The translations under genes and the position numbers were made by a program. A stretch of 64,000 bases of DNA from Brachionus manjavacas. Taxonomy: Eukaryota > Rotifera > Eurotatoria > Ploima > Brachionidae. How positions within the stretch are numbered: position 1 is the first letter of the stretch; each line of letters opens with the position of its first letter. Below are positions 8,558 to 60,583 of the stretch, one piece after another. Under the pieces are notes generated by a model. It saw only the letters and a list, made by a program, of their open reading frames with translations. It was not told the DNA's origin and searched no databases. The stretch spans positions 5,394,001-5,458,000 of the forward strand of contig JAHQIY010000002.1 of assembly GCA_019054805.1 (NCBI GenBank), read 5' to 3'.

Positions 8558-9271
8558 TTATTTTTTTCCTTTTACATTTTTATCTTTATGACACCGACCC
8601 TTATGTATTTTTAGACCCCAATCATTTTCAACAAACTTCATCTTCCCAACAGCTTTACACAAATCACATTGAATTTTATCTTGACCTTTCGGCTTTTCCA
8701 AAACATTAGATACGGCAGTTGATGCTATTTTTGACGGTATTGGATTTTCGTACGAAGCCTTTTCTATCTCTAAAGCCTTCCGTTTTACACTGCTTATTTT
8801 TTCATTAATTATTAAATCATTGATTGAATTAATTTTTTCACTCATTTTTGACATAAGGCACATGGATTTTGTACTCCTAAATGATTCAAAAACTGTACGA
8901 TCTTCTTCTAGATTTGATATATGAATTACATTGTTTTGTGTCCAATGGAAAAGACCTTGTTCATCACATTTTTTATGAATAACACAACGTTGTTCTTTGG
9001 TTAAATCTTTGAATTCAAAATGTTTTTTGTGAACTTTTAAATATTCTAATAAGCACTCTAATTGATTCGTAACTAAAATCTCATCATCAGTTTTATAAAT
9101 TGAAATATTAAAATCTTCCAAATTGCTATCTCCTATTACGTCATTTCGTAAAATAGTCTGTGACAAGTCGACCAACACTTCTTCTTCTTCATTTTTCTCC
9201 TCGGACCAAGTACCATCCTTACCACCAATATCAAATTCATTGTCATCATCATAAATCATAAGATTCTTCAT
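8558..9271 (-). CDS. Second ORF of the Merlin element: R3H-like and C2H2-like protein
   Basis: A 237-residue protein starting at an ATG that overlaps the transposase end by 23 bases in another frame. The N-terminus is acidic. Residues 85-120 (LTKEQRCVIHKKCDEQGL, then FHWT) match the R3H pattern, with R95 and H99 spaced R-x3-H, followed by GLxH. R3H domains bind single-stranded nucleic acid. The C-terminus has a finger-like C202-x2-C205-x17-H223-x4-H228 arrangement and ends in a basic tail. An accessory DNA-binding or regulatory role in transposition is my inference. The frame is fully open. It could also be made as a fusion to the transposase by frameshifting at the overlap. Confidence 0.7.
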   Translation of the reverse strand: MKNLMIYDDDNEFDIGGKDGTWSEEKNEEEEVLVDLSQTILRNDVIGDSNLEDFNISIYKTDDEILVTNQLECLLEYLKVHKKHFEFKDLTKEQRCVIHKKCDEQGLFHWTQNNVIHISNLEEDRTVFESFRSTKSMCLMSKMSEKINSINDLIINEKISSVKRKALEIEKASYENPIPSKIASTAVSNVLEKPKGQDKIQCDLCKAVGKMKFVENDWGLKIHKGRCHKDKNVKGKK

Positions 9272-10211
9272 TCTTAGTAATATCTAACTTAGTTAGGCTA
9301 TCAGCTGGGTAAAATACAACAATTTCTTGAATTATTTGGTCAAACGCTGCAACACGGTCTCTAGCAACTGTTTGTCTCCACATGAATTCATCAATAAATG
9401 ACTTGATATGTATACGCAAACAGCCATTCGATTGCTTAAATGATTCTTTAGCGTGCTTCCACAATCCTTCTATCTTATTGGTATGAGCTCCAGTAATTGG
9501 ATCCAAAAAATTATACTTATGGTTTACTTTTAAGTGGTTAAAATTAAAGTCTTTCAGCTTTTCGTATGAAGACCAGCTGTCAGAAATGATTGTTGTCCCT
9601 TCTTCAACTCTATCAAAAATTATTTTATGCAAAGTTTCTGCTTTACGATCAGGAACGATTTCAATGTAACATCGGCCATTCATCTCACGTTCAACCAATC
9701 CAAACATCCAAATTTGTTTTTTTTTAAGACCTTTACCTCGATTGTATTTTACTTTGCTCACTAACGACTCGTCTATTTCAACCACCCTACCGTTACCTCC
9801 TAACTTCATCGAACTAACTGTATTCTTAACGCTTGCACTGCATAAATTTCTTAATACACGATAAACATTTGAAACAACATATTTCGATTTGTTTGTTATT
9901 TTATTGTCAATTTTAAGTATATCATATGTTTTTGATATTGTAATTTGAGCACACCAAAACTTTATTATCTCAACGATCAACAGCAGTGGGCTCTTAAACA
10001 AACTAAAAAATGAGTTACTATAAACGCTTTGGTATTTTTCACATTTAGGACAACGAAAAGAAGCCATTATTCTAGCGTTTTGGTTACGACGACGTCCAAC
10101 AAGTTTCAATTTTGTACAACAAAAATAACAATTATGATCTTTAGTTAAGATACCATTTGTTTGAAATCGTTTGATATAATTTTATTCTAGTTTATCAATT
10201 TCATGTCTCAT
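9249..10211 (-). pseudogene. Merlin (ISXO2-like) DDE transposase with one premature stop
   Basis: Reading from an ATG at 10211, nine codons lead to a TAA at 10184-10182. The same frame is then open to the TGA at 9249. It carries N-terminal cysteine pairs (CYFCC and CPKC) typical of the ISXO2 zinc-binding region. It then has the catalytic acidic residues in EIDES, ISDSWSSY and NKIEGLW (D113, D177 and E214 counted from the TTG at 10109). These are the DDE residues that cut and join transposon ends. The single nonsense codon is the only break seen, unless translation starts downstream or an upstream exon is spliced in. No ATG occurs between the stop and the first zinc cysteines. Confidence 0.85.
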
Positions 10212-10361: not shown

Positions 10362-13181
10362 TTGATTTTCACAATTATCAATTCATAACAAAACCACGCA
10401 ACAAGTATGGAGGAGGAGTAGCAATTTTAATTAAAGAAGGAATTGAATTTATACAAGATTTCTCTTATGAGGAATTCAATTCCGAACTCCTTTGTATAAA
10501 AATGAACTTAGGAAAGAATAATGAATTGTTTATATTCAGTCTTTATAATCCACCCAATATGCTTCTGAACTTTGAACTCTGAACTTTAAAACTGTTAAAT
10601 AAAAATGTAGAAACTACATTTTAGGTGGTGATCTTTACGCCAGAACAAAGCAAATAGGCTGCGTAGGGGAAAATGAAAACGGCATAATGTTGGAAAGAAT
10701 AATCAATGAGTTAGACTACTCAGTAATCAATGATAATCGTCCTACTTTCAATATTTTTAATAGGAATTACTTTGAAATTCTTGATCTTTTCTTAGTTTCA
10801 TCTTCATTAATTGACAAAATTACCGATTTTGTGTCCTAAATAGTCAAGACATGACTTTTGACCATTTCCAATCGAAGCATCGATTTCTATGGGCTATCAA
10901 TTATAAATAAATCAGCAGCTAAAAAGTTTAACTATAAGAAAGCAAACTGGCAATTATTCAGCGAGATTTTAAATTCTCAAATAGTGAATATCACTGAAAG
11001 TTCCCTCAAAATAAATCAACTAAATGATAAAATTACAGAAAAAATTATTTCAACTTCACATAAAAGCATTCCTTATCATTCGCAGAAAATCTACAAAACC
11101 AGTCTTCCCCCGAACATTGTTATTCTGATAAAAGAACGCAGGAAAGTAAGAAGAAACTTTCAAAAAACTCGCTGTCAAAATCTCAAGAAAAAATTTAATC
11201 AACTTACATTCGAGTTAAAGGCCTCTTTAAAAAAATTTTGGAATCAAAATTGGTTTGATTTTATTGAGAAAATGGGAAAAGACCCACTGACAAGTAGACC
11301 ATTCTGGAAAAAAATAAATAAATTAAAATAAAAGGATCAAATTTAACCCCAAATTTGTTTTTAAATGACAAGGAATTCAAAACTAATGAAAAAAAGGGAA
11401 AATGCTTTGGAGAACTCCTATCTTCAATATTTAGTCCTAATTCTGATTTAAAAGATCGTGATAAAGATTTCGAAATACTTAATTCTAACTCTGAATTCTT
11501 TAGAAATTATGATCAGTCTAATTTTAATGATCCAATTTGCTTAAATGAATTAATTATGGCTCTAAAAAGATTGAAAAATGAAGCGGTATCAGGACCTGAA
11601 CAAATTCATAATCTAATATTAAAAAACTTACATAGAAATTCATTAATAGAAATTATAGAACTTTTTAATTTATCTCTTTGAGAAGGTAGAGTCCCTAAAG
11701 CATGGAAAACATCGAACATTACTATGATTCAAAAAAAAGCCTCTTCTTTACAAGATCCTTTAAATTATAGACCAAACAGTATAACGAGTTGTTTAGGAAA
11801 GCTCCTGGAACGCATAGTTTTTTCAAGATTATACAATTATTTGGAACAAAATTCACTCCTTATCTAGGAGCAATCTGGATTTAGGAAACACCGGTGAACA
11901 TCAGATAATATTTTCTTTTTAATTCAAAAAATTGTGGAATCATTTAATAGAAAAAAAGGGTTTGTGGCCTTTTTTTTGATATTTCTAAAGCCTTTGATAG
12001 GGTTTGGCATGAAGGTCTACTTTTTAAAATTGATTAAAATGAATCCACCTCATTACTTGACTAACTGGATTAGATCCTTTTTAGATAGTAGGACATTTAA
12101 GGTAAATGTGAATGATCATCTGAGCGAAGAATATAAAATAACTGCAGGTGTTCCTCAAGGCTCAGTAATTAGTCCTCTTTTATTTAGTATAAATATTATT
12201 GACATACCTAAAAAAAAAAACAAATAATGAATACTCTCTGCTTTTCGCAGATGATCTAGTTACATTCTTCATTTATAACAAGAAAGGGAACCTAGAAAAT
12301 AAGATTAATAAATACACCAACGAACTAGAACAATGGCTTATTAAATGGAAAATGAAGATATCAGTTGAAAAGTCGTGTTCAGTAGTCTTTTCTAGGTACA
12401 AAAAAGAGGGTGATAATCTAAACTTAAAAATCTATGGAAACAGAATAGTGAGCCAAAAAGAAATCAAGTTTCTTGGTATTAAATTTGATTCTAAGTTAAA
12501 CTTTAATATACTAGTAGACGAAATTAAAGAACGCTGCAACAAAATGCTAAATATTATTAAGATATTGTCAAACAAAAAATGGGGTCTCAATCAAAACACA
12601 CTAGGAAATTTATATAAATCTTTAGTCGGATCGATTTTAGACTATTCTTTTCCTTGCTTAAATTCATTTTCAGAAAATAATATCAAAAAACTACAAGCAA
12701 TTCAGAATACAGCAGTAAGATCTATCCTTAAGTTAAAATATGATACTCCCTCCAACATCGTGCAACATGAAGCTTTTAATTAACTAAAATTACTAACAGT
12801 CTCGAATCGTCTTTTTGAGTTGAGTAAGAAATATGTTGGGACAGGTCTGAGTCATTCTATTCCATTGGTTGAAAGACTGGTGAAAGAATACAAAGAAGGT
12901 TACGAATCAAGATATATTGAATACCCAACTCCATTGTGTAATTGCTACCTTACTATATCTTCTTTTTTTCCTGAAACTTGAACTATTTAAACATGAGCCA
13001 CATGAAACAATCTTTTCCAATTTATGTCTTTTCAACTTTAATTTTTTTTAGCTTATTTACTCTATTTTGATTCTTTTTTTTTATCTAATTTTATTAACTT
13101 TAATATAATTTTTTTATTTTATTTTTAATTTATTCTGAAGGAGCTTTAGCTCGGTACAGAAAACAAATAAATAAATAAAAT

Positions 13182-13425
13182 AATCCTTTGGAAAATAAAA
13201 AAGTTATTTAATAATTATTACGTTGGCCTTATTATTTTTTGACTAAAAAATTTTATTTATTATATTTAATTATATTTATATATTTTGTATATTTAAACAT
13301 TATTAACTTTAATTTTCAATAACCTTTATTCTATTCTTTTTATTCTTGGCTAAAACAGCTTACGCTGAGGCCAAACAAAATAAATAATTAAATCCATAAA
13401 AAAAAATTAAATCCTTTGGAAAATA
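13182..13425 (+). mobile_element. Short LINE end inserted behind the long LINE
   Basis: A 16-base duplication (AATCCTTTGGAAAATA) at 13182-13197 and 13410-13425 brackets a 212-base insert. The insert ends in an imperfect hairpin (GGCTAAAACAGCTTACGC) plus an A/T tail, like the neighbouring LINE. This is the structure of a 5'-truncated LINE insertion made by target-primed reverse transcription. Confidence 0.7.
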
Positions 13426-14769
13426 TAAGCCTTATTCTTATCTATTTATCATCCTCTTGTTCCTCTTTATATATGTTTTACTAATTATTACTAATTATTG
13501 GTGTATTGGTTTTGGCTGTTAATGTTTCTATGTGAATTAATGGCATGTTATGGTCTGCATTGTGCGTATTGTTTTCGTGTTGTGGGAGGTCTTGATTTGT
13601 TGGCTTTTGAGTTTGCGTCTATTGGTTAAACACTTGTTGTTGAAGTAGACTCTGGTATTGGACTCTACTATGTTATTGATTTCACGACTTTTGCCATATT
13701 CTTTTTTCCATCAACTTTCGTTCATTTACTCTCGTTTCTAAACTCCTGTTCTTGCCAATGCTCTTTTTATATGAGTTTTTGCGGTTCCTTTGTGGACACC
13801 GCTGCACAAATTCGCCGTCTGTCCCATTGTCAAACGAATGATTTGGCATTTTTTGATTTGAGCGAGTCACGTGATCAAAAAAATTCTTTTAAAGTTTATT
13901 TTATCTAAAAGTACTTTTTAGTTAAAATTATTGCTTTTTTCAACCAAGTCTATTCTATGCATGAACTTGTAAAACTGAATAAGATCGCCATTCTTTCCAG
14001 CAGTTTTCGAATGTTTAAAGCCTTTAATCTGCTTTCGTAGGGTTTTAATAAATTTTTTTTCTTTAGATCTAAAACTTTTTCTAAAAAATATACCACCCAA
14101 AACCTGACTCTTCAAAAACTATGCAATTTTATTATAAAAATTTCCTAATTCATAAAAATTTTGGCAAAATCTCACAGTTTTTTGTGGAGACTAAATTTGT
14201 ATAATGGAAATTTTTTATCAGCTGATGCATCTTGCAGAATGAGTTAATGACCTAAAGAAAAAAGTTATTTCAATTTAAAATTTTTGTTATATTTTTTGTT
14301 CTATAATTCAAAATGCCCTTTAAATTTGATAATATTAATATGTAAACAAAAGTTTATTGTAAATTTTTTTGGCCATTTGCTTTAAAATTTTAATGAAACA
14401 AAAAAAGCTCGATAAAACTTTCAAGTGAAAAAATTCATGGTATGCTTACTGAATAAAATCAATTTTTTTCAAGATTTTAAAAAACGTTACTTGTTTCAAA
14501 ATGACTCTATTTTTTAATTTTTATAATTATTTTTTGGCTCAGTTTAAATTTCATTTTTAAGATTTAGATTTAATAATAGCAACTCATTTATGCCTGGATA
14601 TTATCGTTATTTTGTTATGCTAATGGATTTAAATTGTATTGTAGAATGAATTCTATATATCTTAATTTTAAAAATTGAATAAAATTTTAGTTCGAAATTG
14701 AACAAATTTAAAAAAAAACTTTTTTTATTGTTTCAAGAAGAATAAATCAAAGAGTTAAAATACATTTAG
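13426..14769. other. Intergenic with weak minus-strand ORF remains
   Basis: Two short minus-strand frames (13870-13682 and 14115-13918) are rich in Lys, Arg and Asn. They could be LINE ORF1 debris, but no motif supports this. The rest is A/T-rich. The ATG of the next gene is preceded by CATTTAG, which could be a 3' splice site of an upstream untranslated exon. Confidence 0.35.
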
Positions 14770-17700
14770 ATGTTCAACACGCCCAAAAGATACAAACCGA
14801 ATACAGATTATTCATCTCCAGAAGAGTTGATTAGTGAATTTAGAAAATTATACGATGAATGTAAACAATTAAAGATCACTACACAAAATGTAGATTTGGT
14901 TTATAGTAGTTTGAGAAAAAACTTTGAAAACACTTGGTCATCTAGTGATGAAAAAATGGTAATAGCTTTTTTTGGTGGCTCTGGGTTGCACAAATCAAGT
15001 TCAATAAATTTTTTGCTCTGCGGTGACTTTGAATTGCCACTGCCAAATTCAGACACGTCAGGTCGAGGGATAACCAAAACACCAATTAGATGCGAATACC
15101 ACAAGGAGGGCCATGACAATTTCATTCTAAAGCTTTTTACCACTGATCGCCTTGAAAGTGAAAAGAAATTAATCTACGAGAAGCTAAAAGATTGTATTAA
15201 TCAGGCGAATGATTGTGATAGATATGATGAAATACTGCTTCAGGTTCCCATTAAATTCAAGCCCTCACAAAGCCTGTTTCCTGATAATGTCCAATTTTTA
15301 GACTTGATTGGCACTGAAGTTAACATGAATGCCAAGAGCATACAAGAAGAGTCTCCAAGCGTAAAAAAAAATCGCGATTCAATACGAAAAAATGAAGTGC
15401 ACTGTGTTTTTATCTTCAACAAAGAGCGTGGAAAGTGCACAACAGAGATCATTAGGCATCTATGGGACATAGATGTCTTCAGTAATTTAAAAGACAAATG
15501 CAAGCCTAAACTTGTAATGTTCGACATTGTTCAAGCTTGGCGTAAGACAGAGCAAGAAATAGAATCTAATTTTAAGGCTGAAGGTCTTGACCAGTGCACC
15601 AAGAGTCTTCAAGTTTCATTGCAGCAAGCGTTTGACTTTGATCTTGATCCAAACGCTGAGAAAACAACCGACAATTCAAAATTGGAACTTCCCCTAATGC
15701 ATAAACCTGTAATTATACCCGAATTGTCTAAAAACTGCACTACTTGTTTCCTACTGGTAAGATCTACACAAATTAGCGACAATTCTTCTCAAGTGCTCAA
15801 TGAAGTTGTACGAAGTATAGCTCAAATGATTCAGAATAATAAAAAACATCTCATTTTTGAATCAGCTGCAAAAATCTTGGTCGAAATTAGACAAAAATTG
15901 AAGTGCAAACTGAGCAGTCAGACCAATGACATGACAAGTGCTTTGCTCAAGTTTTTTGCTTCCAAACAATACGCTAAATTAAAGTTGGAATCTGCTGATC
16001 AAATTGATGCCATTGTTCATACAACTCAGGATTACTTTCTACATAGAGACATTATGGAGCCAATAACAGAGTTGAATGATGATGTAGATATCAGTTATTA
16101 CAAGTGGAGTTCGTACGAGGCTATTGAGTTTAGGATAAATGAGATCTACGAAGATAAATTTATAATGGACCTTGTGTCTTATTTTATGGACTATAAAAAA
16201 AGACTAGATGAGACCATTAGAAAATATTTGATCAACGCTAAAAAAGCTGATCTACAATTTTATTTCTTTTTTGACTTTAATGCTGAATATTTTGCTTGGC
16301 GCATTGAAAACGTTCTAAAGAACACACTAAGAAACGAGCTTTCGAAGTTTATTCATGAAAAAATGAAGAGTGGTAGTGCACAAGAGGAGGAAATTATGAG
16401 TCATTTTAGTACAGCTAGGCACAAAATCGAACAAGCACTTGACATGAAGGAATGTATTGTTGACAGCTCGACTGAAAATTCAAGCACTGTCAATCTGTCT
16501 ACCTTGGAGGACAAATTAAAGCATTTAGATGATAAAATAAGAGCTCAACTTTCTGATTTGGCTGCTAATGATACACTGAGTATACATGAATTTTATGAAA
16601 TTCGCGAGCCATGCTTGCACTTTTCCCAAAGAACCCTCAAATTTCCAACATCTAACTCACCGTGTGACTCATTGGAAAATTGTTCTCAACAAAAATGGAT
16701 CCAAGTGACCAAAAGTGATAGTAAAGCTAGTGATTTGTTTGCAGAGGGGCGAAAAAAAAGCCAAATTATTGAAAATAAACAATTTTTTCATAAAGAAATT
16801 ACCGATGAGTTTAAAAGTGAAATTGAAGAGCTTGGAATAGACACAGCCATTCAAATTCAAATTGATAGAATAGACGAAAAAGTCATTTTTGAATACGATT
16901 CTGTTAAAATAAACAAAAAAATTAATAGTGTATTAAAAAATTTAGATGATTTGGATTCAGATGGACTAGCCACTCATCTCTATCCGATCTTTATATCTTC
17001 TGTTCAGCGTGACTCAAACTTTATTCCAAATTTACTAGTCGATGATCTTTGCAGGCCAGATTCAAGCATAAAAAAATTTATCATTTTTTTGTTTGTTGAA
17101 GCCGGGCCACCAACTCAACGCTTTGACCAAACAATTAAATTCTATGTTAACTTGACCAATTCACTTTTGGAAAAAAACTCTGATAAATTAGCTGAAAATG
17201 CCATTGTTTTGTGCTTTTTGCCAGAGCAAAATCTTGGTATTGGACGTAAGCGAAAGCTTATGATGTTGTTTGCCGAATGGATGAATCTGAAAAGATTTTA
17301 TTTGTGTGACGATGATATTGAGCAATTTTACATTTATGATCCAAGACCTCAATTTAGACGATGCAGAGATCACCACTTGGCTGCTTCAAAAGCTCTCGCT
17401 TACATGTCTCATGTAATGGATTGCGGCCTTGAAGACAAAGATATTGACTCATCCAAGCCAAAAGATCCTCTTACAAGCAAACAAATATGCAGTTTCATAA
17501 AAAAGCTGCCACTTCCGGGGAACAATACTGAAGAGTTGCTGGAATCAATTGAAAATATTTTTGTAGATAAAAAATATGTTACTCAAAAAGACTATTTGTT
17601 TTTTTTGCTTAACAAGCTAGGTGAAGAAGGCAAAAAAATTGAGAAAGAGCTGAAGGATTTGTTGCTGAGCGACAAAGCTAAAGTGCTTGGTCAAATTGGT

Positions 17701-18093
17701 CTATGGAATCAGAATGCAAGTTCTATGCGAACTACATTTACTTCACGGCTTCAAGGCAACAATCGCACAACCCATGCCATATCCAAAATTCGATATCAAG
17801 TAGTATTGTATAATATGCATGCCATTAATGGCATTCACCCGATTAGTGATAATGCTTTATTTGAAATGGCTTTGACAAAAGAAGACAGAGATAAATTGTG
17901 CGCTAAAATTGAAAATAAAAATTTTGATAATAAGGAAGCGTGTAGAGCCGCTAGGCTTGGATACAGATACAGTGACAAAGCGCATGTTTATTACCAAATT
18001 TTAAATCGAGTAACTGGTTATTTGGTGTATTACTTTTCATTTAAAAGTATGAGAAATATCCCGTCACTTGTAAATGGAAAAAAAAATCAATAA
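14770..18093 (+). CDS. Dynamin-like GTPase fused to a GREB1/TET-associated glycosyltransferase-like domain
   Basis: An intronless 1107-residue protein. The N-terminus (about 55-260) looks like a dynamin/SLIP-GC-type GTPase. It has a P-loop at 69-77 (GGSGLHKSS, with H74 where glycine is usual), a switch-like SGRGITKTP, and DLIG (178-181) for DxxG. A helical, charged middle (about 350-720) follows. From about 735 the pattern changes to a GT-A-like fold: YPIFISSVQR (738-747), a strand KKFIIFLFVEAGPP (768-781), GIGRKRK (823-829), then FYLCDDDI with D847-D849 as a metal-binding triplet. Near 1008 it reads RYQVVLYNMHAINGIHP. That order is known from GREB1 and TET-associated glycosyltransferases. 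A role in sugar transfer coupled to GTP-dependent assembly is inference. No signal peptide or clear membrane segment was seen. An AATAAA lies 21 bases after the stop. Confidence 0.7.
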   Translation: MFNTPKRYKPNTDYSSPEELISEFRKLYDECKQLKITTQNVDLVYSSLRKNFENTWSSSDEKMVIAFFGGSGLHKSSSINFLLCGDFELPLPNSDTSGRGITKTPIRCEYHKEGHDNFILKLFTTDRLESEKKLIYEKLKDCINQANDCDRYDEILLQVPIKFKPSQSLFPDNVQFLDLIGTEVNMNAKSIQEESPSVKKNRDSIRKNEVHCVFIFNKERGKCTTEIIRHLWDIDVFSNLKDKCKPKLVMFDIVQAWRKTEQEIESNFKAEGLDQCTKSLQVSLQQAFDFDLDPNAEKTTDNSKLELPLMHKPVIIPELSKNCTTCFLLVRSTQISDNSSQVLNEVVRSIAQMIQNNKKHLIFESAAKILVEIRQKLKCKLSSQTNDMTSALLKFFASKQYAKLKLESADQIDAIVHTTQDYFLHRDIMEPITELNDDVDISYYKWSSYEAIEFRINEIYEDKFIMDLVSYFMDYKKRLDETIRKYLINAKKADLQFYFFFDFNAEYFAWRIENVLKNTLRNELSKFIHEKMKSGSAQEEEIMSHFSTARHKIEQALDMKECIVDSSTENSSTVNLSTLEDKLKHLDDKIRAQLSDLAANDTLSIHEFYEIREPCLHFSQRTLKFPTSNSPCDSLENCSQQKWIQVTKSDSKASDLFAEGRKKSQIIENKQFFHKEITDEFKSEIEELGIDTAIQIQIDRIDEKVIFEYDSVKINKKINSVLKNLDDLDSDGLATHLYPIFISSVQRDSNFIPNLLVDDLCRPDSSIKKFIIFLFVEAGPPTQRFDQTIKFYVNLTNSLLEKNSDKLAENAIVLCFLPEQNLGIGRKRKLMMLFAEWMNLKRFYLCDDDIEQFYIYDPRPQFRRCRDHHLAASKALAYMSHVMDCGLEDKDIDSSKPKDPLTSKQICSFIKKLPLPGNNTEELLESIENIFVDKKYVTQKDYLFFLLNKLGEEGKKIEKELKDLLLSDKAKVLGQIGLWNQNASSMRTTFTSRLQGNNRTTHAISKIRYQVVLYNMHAINGIHPISDNALFEMALTKEDRDKLCAKIENKNFDNKEACRAARLGYRYSDKAHVYYQILNRVTGYLVYYFSFKSMRNIPSLVNGKKNQ

Positions 18094-18113
18094 TTTTTGT
18101 TCAGGTTTATTTT

Positions 18114-18119
18114 AATAAA
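18114..18119 (+). promoter_or_regulatory. Poly(A) signal of the GTPase-glycosyltransferase gene
   Basis: AATAAA 21 bases after the stop at 18093, so the 3' untranslated region is short. Confidence 0.45.
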
Positions 18120-18985
18120 AATATAAATCGGTCTATTACTTAGTCTTTTAATTATTAAATATTATTTTTGATTTAATCAACCTTTTAGGTGAAGTAAATT
18201 TTAAATCAAATTGTAAAAAAAATTGAAAAATAAAACAAAAAATAAAGAGAATGATTCACCACAAACAAAAAACTATTACCCACAAATAAAACTTTTCAAC
18301 AAAAATTTCTTGTAAGAGGAAATTTTTGTGTTGAGAGGAAATTAATAAAATATTTTTAAGCTATTTTAATTTTTTACAAATAAAAAATTTCTGACCAAAA
18401 ACGGATTAAAGTATAAGTCAAAGACAAAAAATTTAAATTTTAAATTTGTTCATAAACTAGACTTTTTTCTGAATTCTTTATTGAATTAACAAAATTTTAC
18501 TTAAAAATTCGTCTAATTATTTTGAGTTAAAACATATATGTCATGGTTATCATGCTTACAAAACTGGATGAGACCTGTTTGAAAAAAAATAATGTTATCA
18601 GCTGATAGCATAACCGGCGAGACCCGGATTGTTTTATCATAAATATAATCCACCGGCAAAGGTTTATTGATTAGATTTTTTATTTTGAGAATTTTACGGT
18701 CTCTAAAAGTAACACTAAAAGTTTAAAAATGAAATTTTGAAAATTTTTTCCAAATTTAAACATTTTTTCTCTAAAGATAAAAAAAACCCAAATTAAAAAA
18801 AATCCAAAATAACATGAAAAATAATTGTTTAATTAAAGAGAACTTTTAAGGACTAAAAATTAAAATTTCTAATCAATGGTCCCGAAAACATATATAACTT
18901 TTTAGATTTAAAAAAAACGCTTTATCATCTAAAATGTTGCTTTTATTTTATATTTGTTCAATTTAATTATATTTTCAACTGATGA
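18120..18985. other. Intergenic, no gene recognised
   Basis: A/T-rich. A patch at 18600-18660 holds a palindromic ATCAGCTGAT and two CCGGC motifs, perhaps transposon debris. Nothing else was seen. Confidence 0.4.
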
Positions 18986-18989
18986 AGTA

Positions 18990-20012
18990 CATCCGCTGAT
19001 ACTGAAAAACTGCGCAAAAACGATGTCACTGTCATTGAAGACAATTTACGAAAAATCAAAAAAGAGTGGAAAAGAGCAAATGTGTCGCCGATCTACAAAA
19101 AAGGAAGTAGATTAGAGCCTGTTAAATATCGATCCGTATCACTCACCTCAGTTGCATGTAAAGTACTAGAAGGTGTTGTCAGGGACCAACTAATTTTTTA
19201 CCTTCAAGAGAATTATCTTATAATTGGAAGTCAACATAAATTTGTCCCATAGAAAGGTTGTATAACAAACCTACTTAAAACGCTTAATATGATCACTATT
19301 GAGTTGGCAAAAGGTTTTAGACTTCTCAAAGGCTTTTGATACTTTACCGCATCAACGACTTCTTCATAAACTATGAGTACTTGGACCAATGCTTGTTATT
19401 CTGTACATAATTGACCTACCTGACTGCGTTTCAAATAGAATGGAATTGTATGCATATGACTCAAAAATACTCGGCATAGTTAATTAAGCTTATGAGAGAG
19501 CGATGTTACAGAAAGATCTGGATGCAGTATGTCAATGGATAGAGATTTGGCGTATGGGACTGTTTGCTAACAAATGTAAAGTAATGCATTTCGGCAGACT
19601 AAATGTATGGCATAAATATACACAAAAATGCAACTCAGATGTTATACTAGCAAGCACAGAGTGTGAAAGGGATCTTGGAGTGATGGTTTCATCAGATTTA
19701 AAGTGGACCCGCCAAGTGAAAAGTGCTTGTGTGAAAGCGAGTAGAGTACTTGGTATGCTAAAGGTAACGTTTAAAAGTAGAGAGGAAAGACTGTGGGTAT
19801 GATTGTGCAAATCCATGGTAAGCCCTCATCTAGATTACACAGTGCAGGTTTGGAATCCAAGTATGAAAATGGACGTGAATGCGTTGGAAAAGGTGCAAGA
19901 GAGGGCAACAAAAATACCTTTGTCTGTAAGAAACATGTCGTATGAAATGAGGTTGACGAAATTAGAACTGACGAAGAACAGACTCATTACTCGGAATCGC
20001 TCTGGAATTTAA
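18990..20012 (+). pseudogene. Degenerate LINE reverse transcriptase
   Basis: Shifted frames spell RT motifs: WKRANVSPIYKKGSR and PVKYRSVSLTSVACK near 19070-19170. After deletions comes the part behind the catalytic site (19503-19802: CQWIEIWRMGLFANKCKVMH, ERDLGVMVSSDLKW) and then SPHLDYTVQVWNP (19818-19856). The palm segment with the YADD motif is largely lost. It is 5'-truncated and dead, of a different family from the LINE at 7-13 kb. Confidence 0.75.
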
Positions 20013-44763: not shown

Positions 44764-47700
44764 CTAAGCTGATTGCAAAGGTATTTTATTCTTCTCGACA
44801 AGTCGCAATAATCGATTGTGCTCCTTTTCATGGCTTTCTAGTAAATATTTGTCTTCTTTGACCCGTTCTCTATGGGACAACAATTTACCATATGTTTCCT
44901 CGCGATCGGCGCTATACTAAAATAGAAATAATAAAAAAAATATTCTAGTTAAATTCTAGAATTTACTTTATCCAATTTTGATTTTTCTTTAAGGATTTTT
45001 TGCTCAAATTCCTGTTCTTCATTAAATGCCTTGGCAATCAATTCCTTAATTTGAGCAGCATTTTGTTTTTTTACTTCAATCAATTGTTCTTGCAGTTTTT
45101 TTAGTTCCATGTCTTTTTTTCGTCTCATAAACTCGGCTTCTTTGACTGTTTTGTACAAATCTTGTTCTATTTCATCGTCTTTTTGAACCAATTTCTGAAA
45201 ATGCTTTAAATGATCTTCGTGGTCTTTAGCCTCTAATTCAGTCAATTTGTGTGCAGCTTTATTTCTGAACAAAGTTTCGTGTTCATCAGATTTTTGAATC
45301 TTTTCGTTTAGTGCCCGAGTATGCAAACTCTGTCGTCTATTAGTAATATCCTTTAAAAAAAAAGATAAAATCATTAAATAATTATGTAACAGATTGAAAA
45401 ATTAGAATATTTAAATTTTTTTTAATACTTCAATTTTCTTTTCAATTTCATTTGCACGTCTGTCTTGTTCTGCTATCATTGCCGCCTCATTTAAATTTCT
45501 TTGTTTTTGATAAATGTTCTCTAGTTTATTCCGAGCATCCACAATTCTTCTATTAGCCTCACGCTGCCTCAACGACCATTGCGCTTTTTCCAAATCGTTC
45601 TCTGCCGATAATCTTCTGCGAGTCATGTCATAATTTTTTATATAATTGCTCGTTTTGGCAATGTTTTCTTCGAGTTCTTTTTCACTGTTCAAATCAGACT
45701 TGATCTGCTTTTCATGATTCCTTTCGACCATTTTTCTAAAATCGAACAAATCATTTTTTGCTTTGATGGTCTCCATATTTAGGGCCAGTGCAATCTCGGC
45801 AACTTCTTTTTTGATCCTGGCTTCTTCTTCTTCTTTACGCCGAATTTTACTCTCAAAATCACTGTGAAGTGTGTTAAGCTCGTTTTTTTTAATATCCAAC
45901 TCGTTCATTTTAAGTCTATACTGACGGGACAGATCATTACATACAAGCAATGTTTTACGGCCCTTGTCCTTGGAGTGTATCATTTGGTCAACTTTTTGTT
46001 CTGTTCGTTCTTTGGTTTTCTTTAAAAAAAAAAATAATTAAAAAAAAGTGCCGAAACTCGGGATCGAACCAAGGACCTTTAGATCTTCAGTCTAACGCTC
46101 TCCCAACTGAGCTATTTCGGCTTAGATAATTCTACTTACTTTTTCTTTTTTATGTGCGTTTTCAATCTCCAGAACCTTTTTTTCCTCCAAATTTTTTGAC
46201 AAACTCTTGTCCGCATCAAGTCTTTTTTTGCTAATTACTTTTTTTCAGGAAAACTTCAAAATTAGATTTCTTTTATTTTATTTAAAAAGCTTGTTACGTC
46301 CGTCAAATTCCCGGACTGCTTGGCGAATTTGGCGCTGCTCTTTTTTCACATCACCCTCTTCACGCTTAAATCCCCGTTCCTCTTGCTTGCTTTGAATCAT
46401 TTGATCTTCGATAACTTTTAAATGTTTTTCGTTTTTCTTTCGTTTCTCGACTTCTTGTCCAGCTATATCGACCGAACTCAATTCAATTCGGACATTGCTT
46501 CTCTTTTGTCCGCCCATGCCACTTTCACTTGAAGAACGCCTTTTTTCAAGATATCGTTGCTTAAGATTAGCCCTATGTATAGTCTGATTAGAGTCAATGT
46601 AGCCATCTTTGCTAACATAGCGACCAAATTTTCTTAAAATTAATTTGTTTTGAATCAAAAATTTATTTCTCTGCCTAAAAAGACATTAAGTATTTAATTT
46701 CAATTAGATGTGAAAATAATTGTGACGAAATTAAAAAAGCCGCTTATCAATTTTGTGACCCACAGATCAAAGAAAACTTTTTTTTTTTTTAAATTCAAGT
46801 CTGAAAAAAATTCATTTGGCCGCGATCATATCCACATGGAACGGTAAAAATTCAATTTCAAATGAATAAAATTAATTTTTACTTCTAAAAAGAGTCTGGA
46901 TCTTATTATTTACCAGACTTGTTTTTGAAAATAATTTTTTTAGATTGAAAAACACCATCTTAAGAATTAATGAATTTTTTGATGTTATTTTTGATAAAGA
47001 TTGTTCAAACAGTTCTACTTTAATTAAATATTTAACAGGATTTTTGAAAAAAATTTCTAAGCATCATAAAATATTTCAGCTCAAATGATAAATATCTATC
47101 TAAATTTTAATTTTTTTAAAATTGTTCAAAGATAAAACTCTTGAATAAAAGATATTCACAATTTTCCTATTAAGACCTACATCTATCCTCAAATTTTTCA
47201 AATTTCTAAACAAAATTTAATTATTTCATTTATATATAACCAAAAATCAACTTAGTAAAATTGTTGCGTCAATTCTTAATTTTTATCCTCCCCTAACAAA
47301 AAATCCTAAATCTTTATTATTTACCAAAGGTTTAATTTTTTATTTTCAAAATTTTTTTTAATAAAATTGAAAAAATCAAGGAATGATTTAAAATGATAAA
47401 TTTTTTTTTCTCTTCAAATTTTTCAAATTTTTTATCTATTTTAGAGTTTCTGATTTTCTAAAACAAAAATTTATTTTTCAAAATAAATTAAATTACGTTT
47501 TCTTTAATCAAGATTTACTTAAAAAAATCAAAACGATTAAAATTCCTAAAATGAAAAATCGAAAAAAAATCAAATTATCATTAACTGAAAAATTAAAAGA
47601 TTTATTAAAATTTTATTTGCTTTTTTCTGGTGGATTCTGTTTATTATTCTTACAAATATTTTTAATTTTTTTTCAAAGTTTTTTAACTTAATTTTTTAAT

Positions 47701-58872: not shown

Positions 58873-60583
58873 TTTTTTTTCTTTTTTGTTTAAACCATAA
58901 TATATTTATCATTTAATAAAAACCTTTTGAACAGAATTTTATTTTTGTTTTTTAAGAAAGTAAAGAAACGAAAAAAGTCAATGAAAATCAGCCGTCAAGT
59001 AACCGCCAGCAAAGATTTTTGAAAAGTTGCCAATTAAAAATTATTTTTTAGCACCAAGATCCCAGAAGTCTCAGTCAAAGCCATCTACGCCGGCAGTTCA
59101 GGCCAAAGCTAAAGCAAGCACAGCTCAAAAATCTCAAATAAGCAAACAAACAGCTCAACTAGGCGAGCTTCGCTTAAGCCCAATTGTTGACTCGGCAGCG
59201 AAGGAAAAACTTCTAAAACAGTATGGAGAACACACTGCCGGCAAAGACGTCCTTAATTTGATTGTAATCGGGCATGTAGACTCGGGAAAAAGTACTCTAA
59301 TGGGGCATTTGCTGTACCAAATGGGTCAGGTATCGGACAAACAGTTGCATCGGTACAGACAGGACTCGCAGAAGATTGGCAAAAGCTCGTTTGCATATGC
59401 TTGGGTCCTGGACGAGACAGAAGAAGAACGAAGCCGAGGCATTACCATTGACGTTGCTCAGACAAAATTTGAGACAAACAAAAAAATTATTTATCTACTA
59501 GACGCGCCAGGTCATAAGGATTTTATTCCCAACATGATTACGGGAGCCACCCAAGCCGATTCGGCAATTCTGGTCATTAACAGTGTTACTGGAGAGTTCG
59601 AGACTGGATTTGATCTTGGCGGACAGACTAGAGAACACTCGTTGTTGGTCAAATCGCTTGGTATCAATCAGCTCATTGTTGCTGTCAACAAAATGGACAT
59701 GTGTGACTGGTCCGAATCACGATTTTTGGACATACAAAAAAAATTGAGCAATTTTTTAATAAAACAAGTTGGCTTTAAAGAAACAGACCTCATATTTGTG
59801 CCGTGTAGTGGATTGCAAGGTGAAAATTTAAGCAAAAAATGCATGGATGAAAAATTGACCTGTTGGTACAATGAGAGCAAAACATTCGAGTCTAAATCAA
59901 TAAAAGGGGGTCTTACTTTGCTGGAATGTGTTGACAAATTAAAGCATCAAGAAAGATCAATAGATAAACCATTTAGATTTTGTATATCGGACATATTCAA
60001 GAGTGCTCAGACTGCAAATTTGTCACTAGTGGGCAAGTGTGAGGCAGGCACAGTGAAACAAGGTGATAAAATAACTATTGTGCCTGCAAACGAAACTGGT
60101 GTCGTAAAATCAATTTCTATTAACGATGAAGTTTCAATACCAATGTGTTTTGCAGGTGATTCTGCTACTTTGAACGTGGCCAATGTTGACATAAATAACA
60201 TATCGATTGGCAATTTTATTTGCGATAATCAATCAGTTATGCCAGTAACAGATCGAATAAGAGGAAGAATTATTTTGTTCAATTTGAGCATTCCGGTTAC
60301 CAATGGTTTTCCAGTTGTTTTTCATTACAAGTCGTTGAACGAAGCCGCAACTGTCAAAAAGCTTGTTTCTCAATTGGATAAGAGTAGTGGTGAAGTGGTG
60401 AAAGAGAAGCCCAGAGTGCTGAATAATGGACATAGTGCCATTGTTGAAATTAAAATAAACAAGCCAATTTGTGTCGAGTTGTACCAAAATTACCGTGAAT
60501 TGGGACGATTTATGTTAAGGTACAATGGCGTGACAATAGCTGCCGGCCAGATTACTGAAATAATTCAAAAGACAAAAAATTAA
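57366..60583 (+). CDS. HBS1L: HBS1, ribosome-rescue GTPase (long isoform)
   Basis: HBS1 is the eRF3/EF-1alpha-like GTPase that, with Pelota, rescues stalled ribosomes in no-go and non-stop decay. Exons: 57366-57411, 57462-57527, 57582-57734, 57790-57825, 58957-58998 and 59052-60583; 624 residues. The long internal exon 57890-58872 is skipped in this isoform. The N-terminus MSRHRNVRKVSLADD and acidic/aromatic SYAISPGT segment match the HBS1 N-domain. The GTPase has GHVDSGKST (188-196), RSRGITID, DAPGHKDF and NKMD. The C-terminus ends ELGRFMLRYNGVTIAAGQIT, as in EF-1alpha relatives. AATAAA is at 60639-60644. Confidence 0.95.
58915..58920 (+). promoter_or_regulatory. Poly(A) signal of the SKI7-like isoform
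   Basis: AATAAA 43 bases after the SKI7-like stop and before the next HBS1 exon (58957). It allows the short mRNA to end inside the HBS1 gene. Confidence 0.55.

Follow-up and report, generated by a model that had tools for sequence, protein, structure and literature searches.

The T6 beta-glucosyl-hydroxymethylcytosine (HMC)-alpha-glucosyltransferase, one of the TET-associated glycosyltransferases (TAGT, PF20691), has a GT-A fold, and the phage TAGTs attach sugar to DNA bases (excerpt of PMC13216743). The animal protein GREB1 carries a TAGT domain at its C-terminus and a permuted superfamily 2 (SF2) helicase module (excerpt of PMC6163654), and it is reported to O-GlcNAcylate protein (excerpt of PMC12645433). 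Dynamin-family GTPases and TAGT/GREB1-type glycosyltransferases have each been studied, the latter being reported to act on DNA or protein depending on the member. We know of no bacterial dynamin-like protein, mitofusin or Mx protein that carries a glycosyltransferase. Here we analyze a gene of the rotifer Brachionus manjavacas that combines the two modules in one polypeptide, located in a 64,000-nucleotide stretch of contig JAHQIY010000002.1 that we term the window (C2:5394001-5458000). For the first ~600 residues the prediction is a GTPase of the dynamin superfamily followed by a putative helical stalk, and for the last ~410 a GT-A glycosyltransferase that would be distant kin of the TAGT/GREB1 group. 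What is new is the conserved combination of these modules, not the modules themselves. The features of the gene are as follows.

14770..18093, plus strand: fusion protein of 1107 aa, single-exon open reading frame (from reading frame, run statistics and relatives)
14947..15639, plus strand: dynamin-like GTPase core, residues ~60-290
14974..15000, plus strand: P-loop region GGSGLHKSS, residues 69-77, a degenerate G1 motif
15301..15312, plus strand: G3 motif DLIG, residues 178-181 (DL[IV]G in 9/9 members holding the site)
15778..16569, plus strand: helical stalk or bundle, residues ~337-600 (helices in the AlphaFold2 (AF2) model; predicted local distance difference test (pLDDT) 39-84 in 10-residue blocks)
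16570..16779, plus strand: low-confidence linker, residues ~601-670 (pLDDT <50 at 599-661)
16837..18078, plus strand: GT-A glycosyltransferase domain, residues ~690-1103 (weak sequence match and predicted fold)
16984..17001, plus strand: PIFISS, residues 739-744, predicted core strand (AF2 strand 740-744)
17236..17256, plus strand: GIGRKRK, residues 823-829, start of the helix ahead of DDD (fits GIxxxRK of phage TAGTs)
17308..17316, plus strand: DDD, residues 847-849, putative metal/nucleotide-sugar site of the DxD type (family and phage conservation)
17791..17814, plus strand: RYQVVLYN, residues 1008-1015, late core strand (AF2 strand 1009-1015)

The initial annotation of this DNA called an uninterrupted frame of 1107 codons, and this is borne out. 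The frame occupies a single exon, and its ATG sits immediately 3′ of an in-frame stop. At a base composition of 28% GC the probability of so many consecutive stop-free codons is ~10^-40.5, and the frame is not a chance run. Nor do two mis-joined genes seem a good explanation, because the fusion recurs in relatives including Hydra.

The natural fusion of a dynamin-like GTPase module with a predicted glycosyltransferase module is conserved beyond the rotifers. Protein searches gave 1 match among 7994 scored candidates at E <= 0.001, 3 among 6590 at E <= 1 and 12 among 7998 at E <= 0.1 (four of them already known), where the 7994- and 7998-candidate searches scored only those candidates with the most words in common. 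The family comprises the window protein, twelve further proteins (P0001-P0012) and a second copy in the same genome (L002). Both halves are present in seven relatives, i.e. L002, P0002 (which begins downstream of the P-loop), P0003, P0004, P0005, P0006 and P0008 of Hydra vulgaris, a protein of 1173 aa encoded on a 42.5-Mb contig. The GTPase part is missing from P0007 and P0009-P0012, and P0001 of B. calyciflorus, which agrees with the window protein at 60% in the alignment, ends at GIGRKR. A hidden Markov model (HMM) constructed from eight other N-terminal parts detects that of Hydra at an E value of 2.4e-60, with 0 of 1000 residue shuffles at E <= 10, and the C-terminal parts of the window and Hydra proteins agree at 38% in the alignment (E 9e-77). 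The initial annotation had also suggested determining the copy number, and two loci of the fusion gene were found in the B. manjavacas genome (114.17 Mb, 61 contigs). The second, L002, is a 1108-aa open frame at C7:305289-308540 (-) that is 38% identical to the window copy and 86% identical (934/1092) to B. plicatilis BpHYR1_026925. In a tree built from 13 C-terminal parts, the partner of L002 is B. plicatilis P0003 (100/99); the window copy joins P0007 and the L002 group at 87/95, a placement that is not firm.

Both modules fall under the family cut-offs by sequence and are clearer by predicted fold. The fold model was generated by AF2 from 13 sequences, and replaced a fold of the C-terminal part from one sequence alone, which was useless (pLDDT 38.7). 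The C-terminal half is predicted to adopt a GT-A fold in which DDD sits where a core strand ends, and among named viral glycosyltransferases a phage TAGT ranks highest by fold. Of the refuting outcomes that the initial annotation named, none of those open to test was seen. The fold matches also include hyaluronan and chondroitin synthases. TAGT matches by sequence are weak, but fall at one consistent site, and the hhalign score of the family against TAGT exceeds those of all 200 shuffles. The reading of the initial annotation was right in outline, and most of its landmarks are where they were placed: PIFISSVQR at 739-747, then GIGRKRK and DDD. The segment QVVLYN is likewise present, but is followed by five residues before the next glycine rather than six, and PIF follows the P-loop in the predicted order at a distance of ~670 rather than ~600 residues. 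GIGRxRK and DDD are found in 13 of the 14 family proteins, the remaining one being the P0001 sequence that stops short. All 31 phage TAGTs used contain DDD, but 29 of these were collected by a two-pattern scan, and one of its patterns includes DDD. The window domain and the TAGTs have a PE...GIG.KRK...DDD core in common, the closest by eye being in phage contig L014. Unlike the TAGTs, the window domain is ~410 aa long, has an extended helical insert that separates DDD from the late strand, is under the Pfam cut-off and is fused to a GTPase, and at the sensitivity used no relative was found in viral contigs or phage records. In GREB1 the partner is a helicase module, whereas here it is dynamin-like, a comparison made by description only. 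A search of the B. manjavacas genome with GREB1_N gave no match, yet its control gave no signal either.

The N-terminal half is predicted to have the fold of a dynamin superfamily GTPase domain. The strongest fold matches in the PDB include BDLP, IniA and mitofusins. Mx proteins are also among those at E <= 0.001, whereas IRG proteins match no better than E 0.015. The predicted likeness to bacterial dynamin-like proteins, mitofusins and Mx lies in the GTPase core, and extends less firmly to the helical part at ~15-605; VIA alignments of residues ~14-607 with SynDLP and mitofusins gave rmsd (root-mean-square deviation) values of 6.7-10.2, the long helices being modelled at modest confidence. 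In contrast to the fold, the sequence similarity to these proteins is under the Pfam cut-offs. In sequence searches of the PDB, the full profile matched GTPase Der (E 0.0098) as well as helical constructs, and the single window sequence had no match at E <= 1. The proposal of one polypeptide with a large-GTPase-like and a sugar-transferase module is therefore supported by the model of this half and by the fusion in relatives, while the claim of an N-terminal P-loop and DxxG holds for the latter (DLIG) and not fully for the former: GGSGLHKS (69-76) lacks the canonical glycine preceding K. That glycine is replaced by H or R in three of the eight members holding the site, and the other five, L002 included, have a canonical GxxxxGKS. 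No G4 motif (T/NKxD) was matched by regular expression at the expected place; NKMR in Hydra was read by eye. The pattern LPNS...G.G.T may resemble an LPxS...CTS-like pattern after the P-loop of the nuclear GTPase SLIP-GC (NUGGC).

Some other matches were rejected. The window protein matches the RFC1 C-terminal domain (PF08519) at 24.5 bits against a cut-off of 23 (residues 367-435), and P0001 does so weakly (E 0.016). This domain is missing from the Pfam matches of P0002-P0012 and L002, and the model has long helices there; a chance helical match is our reading, unproven. Matches to mCpol are sub-threshold and confined to the window member, and PDB sequence matches of the C-terminal profile to gp41 were taken as chance.

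What might such a protein do? We infer its activity, sugar donor, acceptor, assembly and role in the cell, and give about an even chance to the following account as a whole. It would be a soluble intracellular protein uniting a dynamin superfamily GTPase with a TAGT/GREB1-related GT-A glycosyltransferase. GIGRKRK...DDD would be the binding site for nucleotide sugar and divalent metal, and nucleotide binding with stalk-driven self-assembly might place the glycosyltransferase at an intracellular target or switch it on there, with sugar transfer in the cytosol or nucleus. The acceptor would most likely be protein, by analogy with GREB1. The GTPase of the window copy is probably weak or inactive and may serve as a scaffold, L002 retaining the canonical P-loop. 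Solubility is argued from the lack of a strongly hydrophobic segment: no 19-residue stretch with a Kyte-Doolittle mean >1.36 was seen in eight long family members. The profile searches call for caution. The PF20691 gathering cut-off of 27.5 bits is reached by none of the 13 proteins with the site (best 22.7 bits), compared with 35.8 bits for the T6 TAGT, so that the TAGT model gave matches as the initial annotation expected, but below threshold. Dynamin_N has no match in the window protein, its best score in the family being 20.7 bits (P0005) against a cut-off of 27, and no GREB1 family is among the Pfam matches (E <= 10) of the window protein.

Several other readings were considered. The protein could be an innate-immune effector, in which a large GTPase of the Mx/IRG/GBP kind would form a coat around an invading particle or vacuole, while the fused domain glycosylates it or a host factor. 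This overlaps with the account above and is possible, if clearly less probable; the Mx and IRG fold matches, the occurrence in rotifers, Hydra and further sequences with two copies in one genome, and the variation of the P-loop between copies all fit it, but BDLP, IniA and mitofusins match equally well or better, and two copies do not amount to a large expansion. It is rather unlikely that the GTPase part is a pseudo-enzyme, leaving the glycosyltransferase alone active. The loss of the P-loop glycine in some members, the want of a clear G4 motif and the retention of DDD in 13/13 members reaching the site would agree with this, against which most members holding the P-loop keep it intact, among them L002. 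Equally improbable to one another, and more so than the foregoing, are roles at membranes and on DNA. A dynamin that remodels membranes and uses its glycosyltransferase on a membrane glycan or a lipid would suit the matches to BDLP, IniA, mitofusins and the hyaluronan and chondroitin synthases, but not the lack of a strongly hydrophobic segment.

Modification of DNA bases in the manner of the T-even phage TAGTs, with the GTPase part as a tether, draws on the phage TAGT as top-ranked named viral enzyme by fold and on the T6 enzyme, which glucosylates glucosylated hydroxymethylcytosine (excerpt of PMC13216743). Sequenced rotifers are reported to be without Dnmt1 and Dnmt3 (excerpt of PMC8885841), and for this reason protein is the likelier acceptor; the situation in Hydra may differ. 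The B. manjavacas assembly contains four DNA_methylase matches (L054, L055, L056 and the short L057). Those of L054 (contig C21) and L056 (C40) sit amid long, uninterrupted, closely packed frames of bacterial type, with neighbours that by eye resemble lipoamide dehydrogenase, acyltransferase and ABC transporters; both contigs are probably bacterial, and L055 is on the same contig as L054. 5mC may still occur in this species. Contig C21 also carries several Dynamin_N matches. A TET search of the genome gave no match, yet its control also gave no signal.

That this natural fusion is conserved points to a coupling of the two activities somewhere in animal cells. More broadly, and tentatively, there may be an undescribed class of animal enzyme common to rotifers and cnidarians, where a dynamin-like GTPase, through its assembly, controls a TAGT/GREB1-type glycosyltransferase of the cytosol or nucleus, possibly as an innate-immune effector. 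The initial annotation knew of no described protein with this layout, and we found nothing relevant by title in the open-licence literature, which does not include the founding paper on TAGTs (Iyer et al. 2013), where an earlier mention is possible. The pairing is present in the Hydra protein sequence. Gene editing is available in B. manjavacas (excerpt of PMC10395877), and what such a glycosyltransferase acts on could be studied in animals that are reported to be without Dnmt1/3. The N-termini of the window protein (14770-14800), P0001 and P0008 contain short basic stretches (KRYK, KRFKR, KRRR) that were not seen in L002; judged by sequence, these stretches could be nuclear localisation signals. 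Directly 5′ of the ATG, TTTAG at 14758-14769 resembles a 3′ splice site, and an untranslated leader exon or a trans-spliced leader is possible.

The locus looks like ordinary rotifer chromosome with transposon remnants. Upstream of the gene are an ISXO2-like DDE_Tnp_IS1595 transposase frame at 9249-10181 (-) (PF12762, E 1.9e-21) and a reverse-transcriptase fragment at 12193-12783 (+) (PF00078, E 5.2e-7), the latter probably derived from a decayed non-LTR (long terminal repeat) element. Multi-copy stretches lie at ~13000-13412 and from ~18970, the dispersed repeat at ~18970-19600 having at least 71 matches in the genome (from 40 of 233 candidates), and 13972-14313 has one other copy with 97% identity. 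The near flanks (~14314-14769 and 18094-18969) match only themselves in a search that skips simple repeats, and the gene body is low-copy. Mobile-element cargo was rejected, given just two loci that are 38% identical and near flanks without other copies. No viral or bacterial source of the fusion was found in viral contigs, GTDB genome contigs or phage records using exact conserved peptides or tblastn, by which distant relatives could escape, and no relative was confirmed when genome contigs were scanned with phage TAGTs. Seven inverted-repeat pairs were found, with arms on opposite sides of the gene in four. Three AT-rich pairs (20-27 nt, 85-92%; best 24 nt, 92%) are within ~900 bases of the gene:

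14695-14725 with 18426-18452: AT-rich inverted-repeat arms bracketing the gene
14695-14725 with 18941-18964: AT-rich inverted-repeat arms bracketing the gene
14546-14565 with 18718-18737: AT-rich inverted-repeat arms bracketing the gene

These three pairs are either chance or old element ends. L002 is likewise bracketed by one AT-rich inverted-repeat pair. Farther downstream the window contains a tRNA-Phe (gaa) at 46048-46121 (-) and an elongation-factor-like GTPase at 59003-60583.
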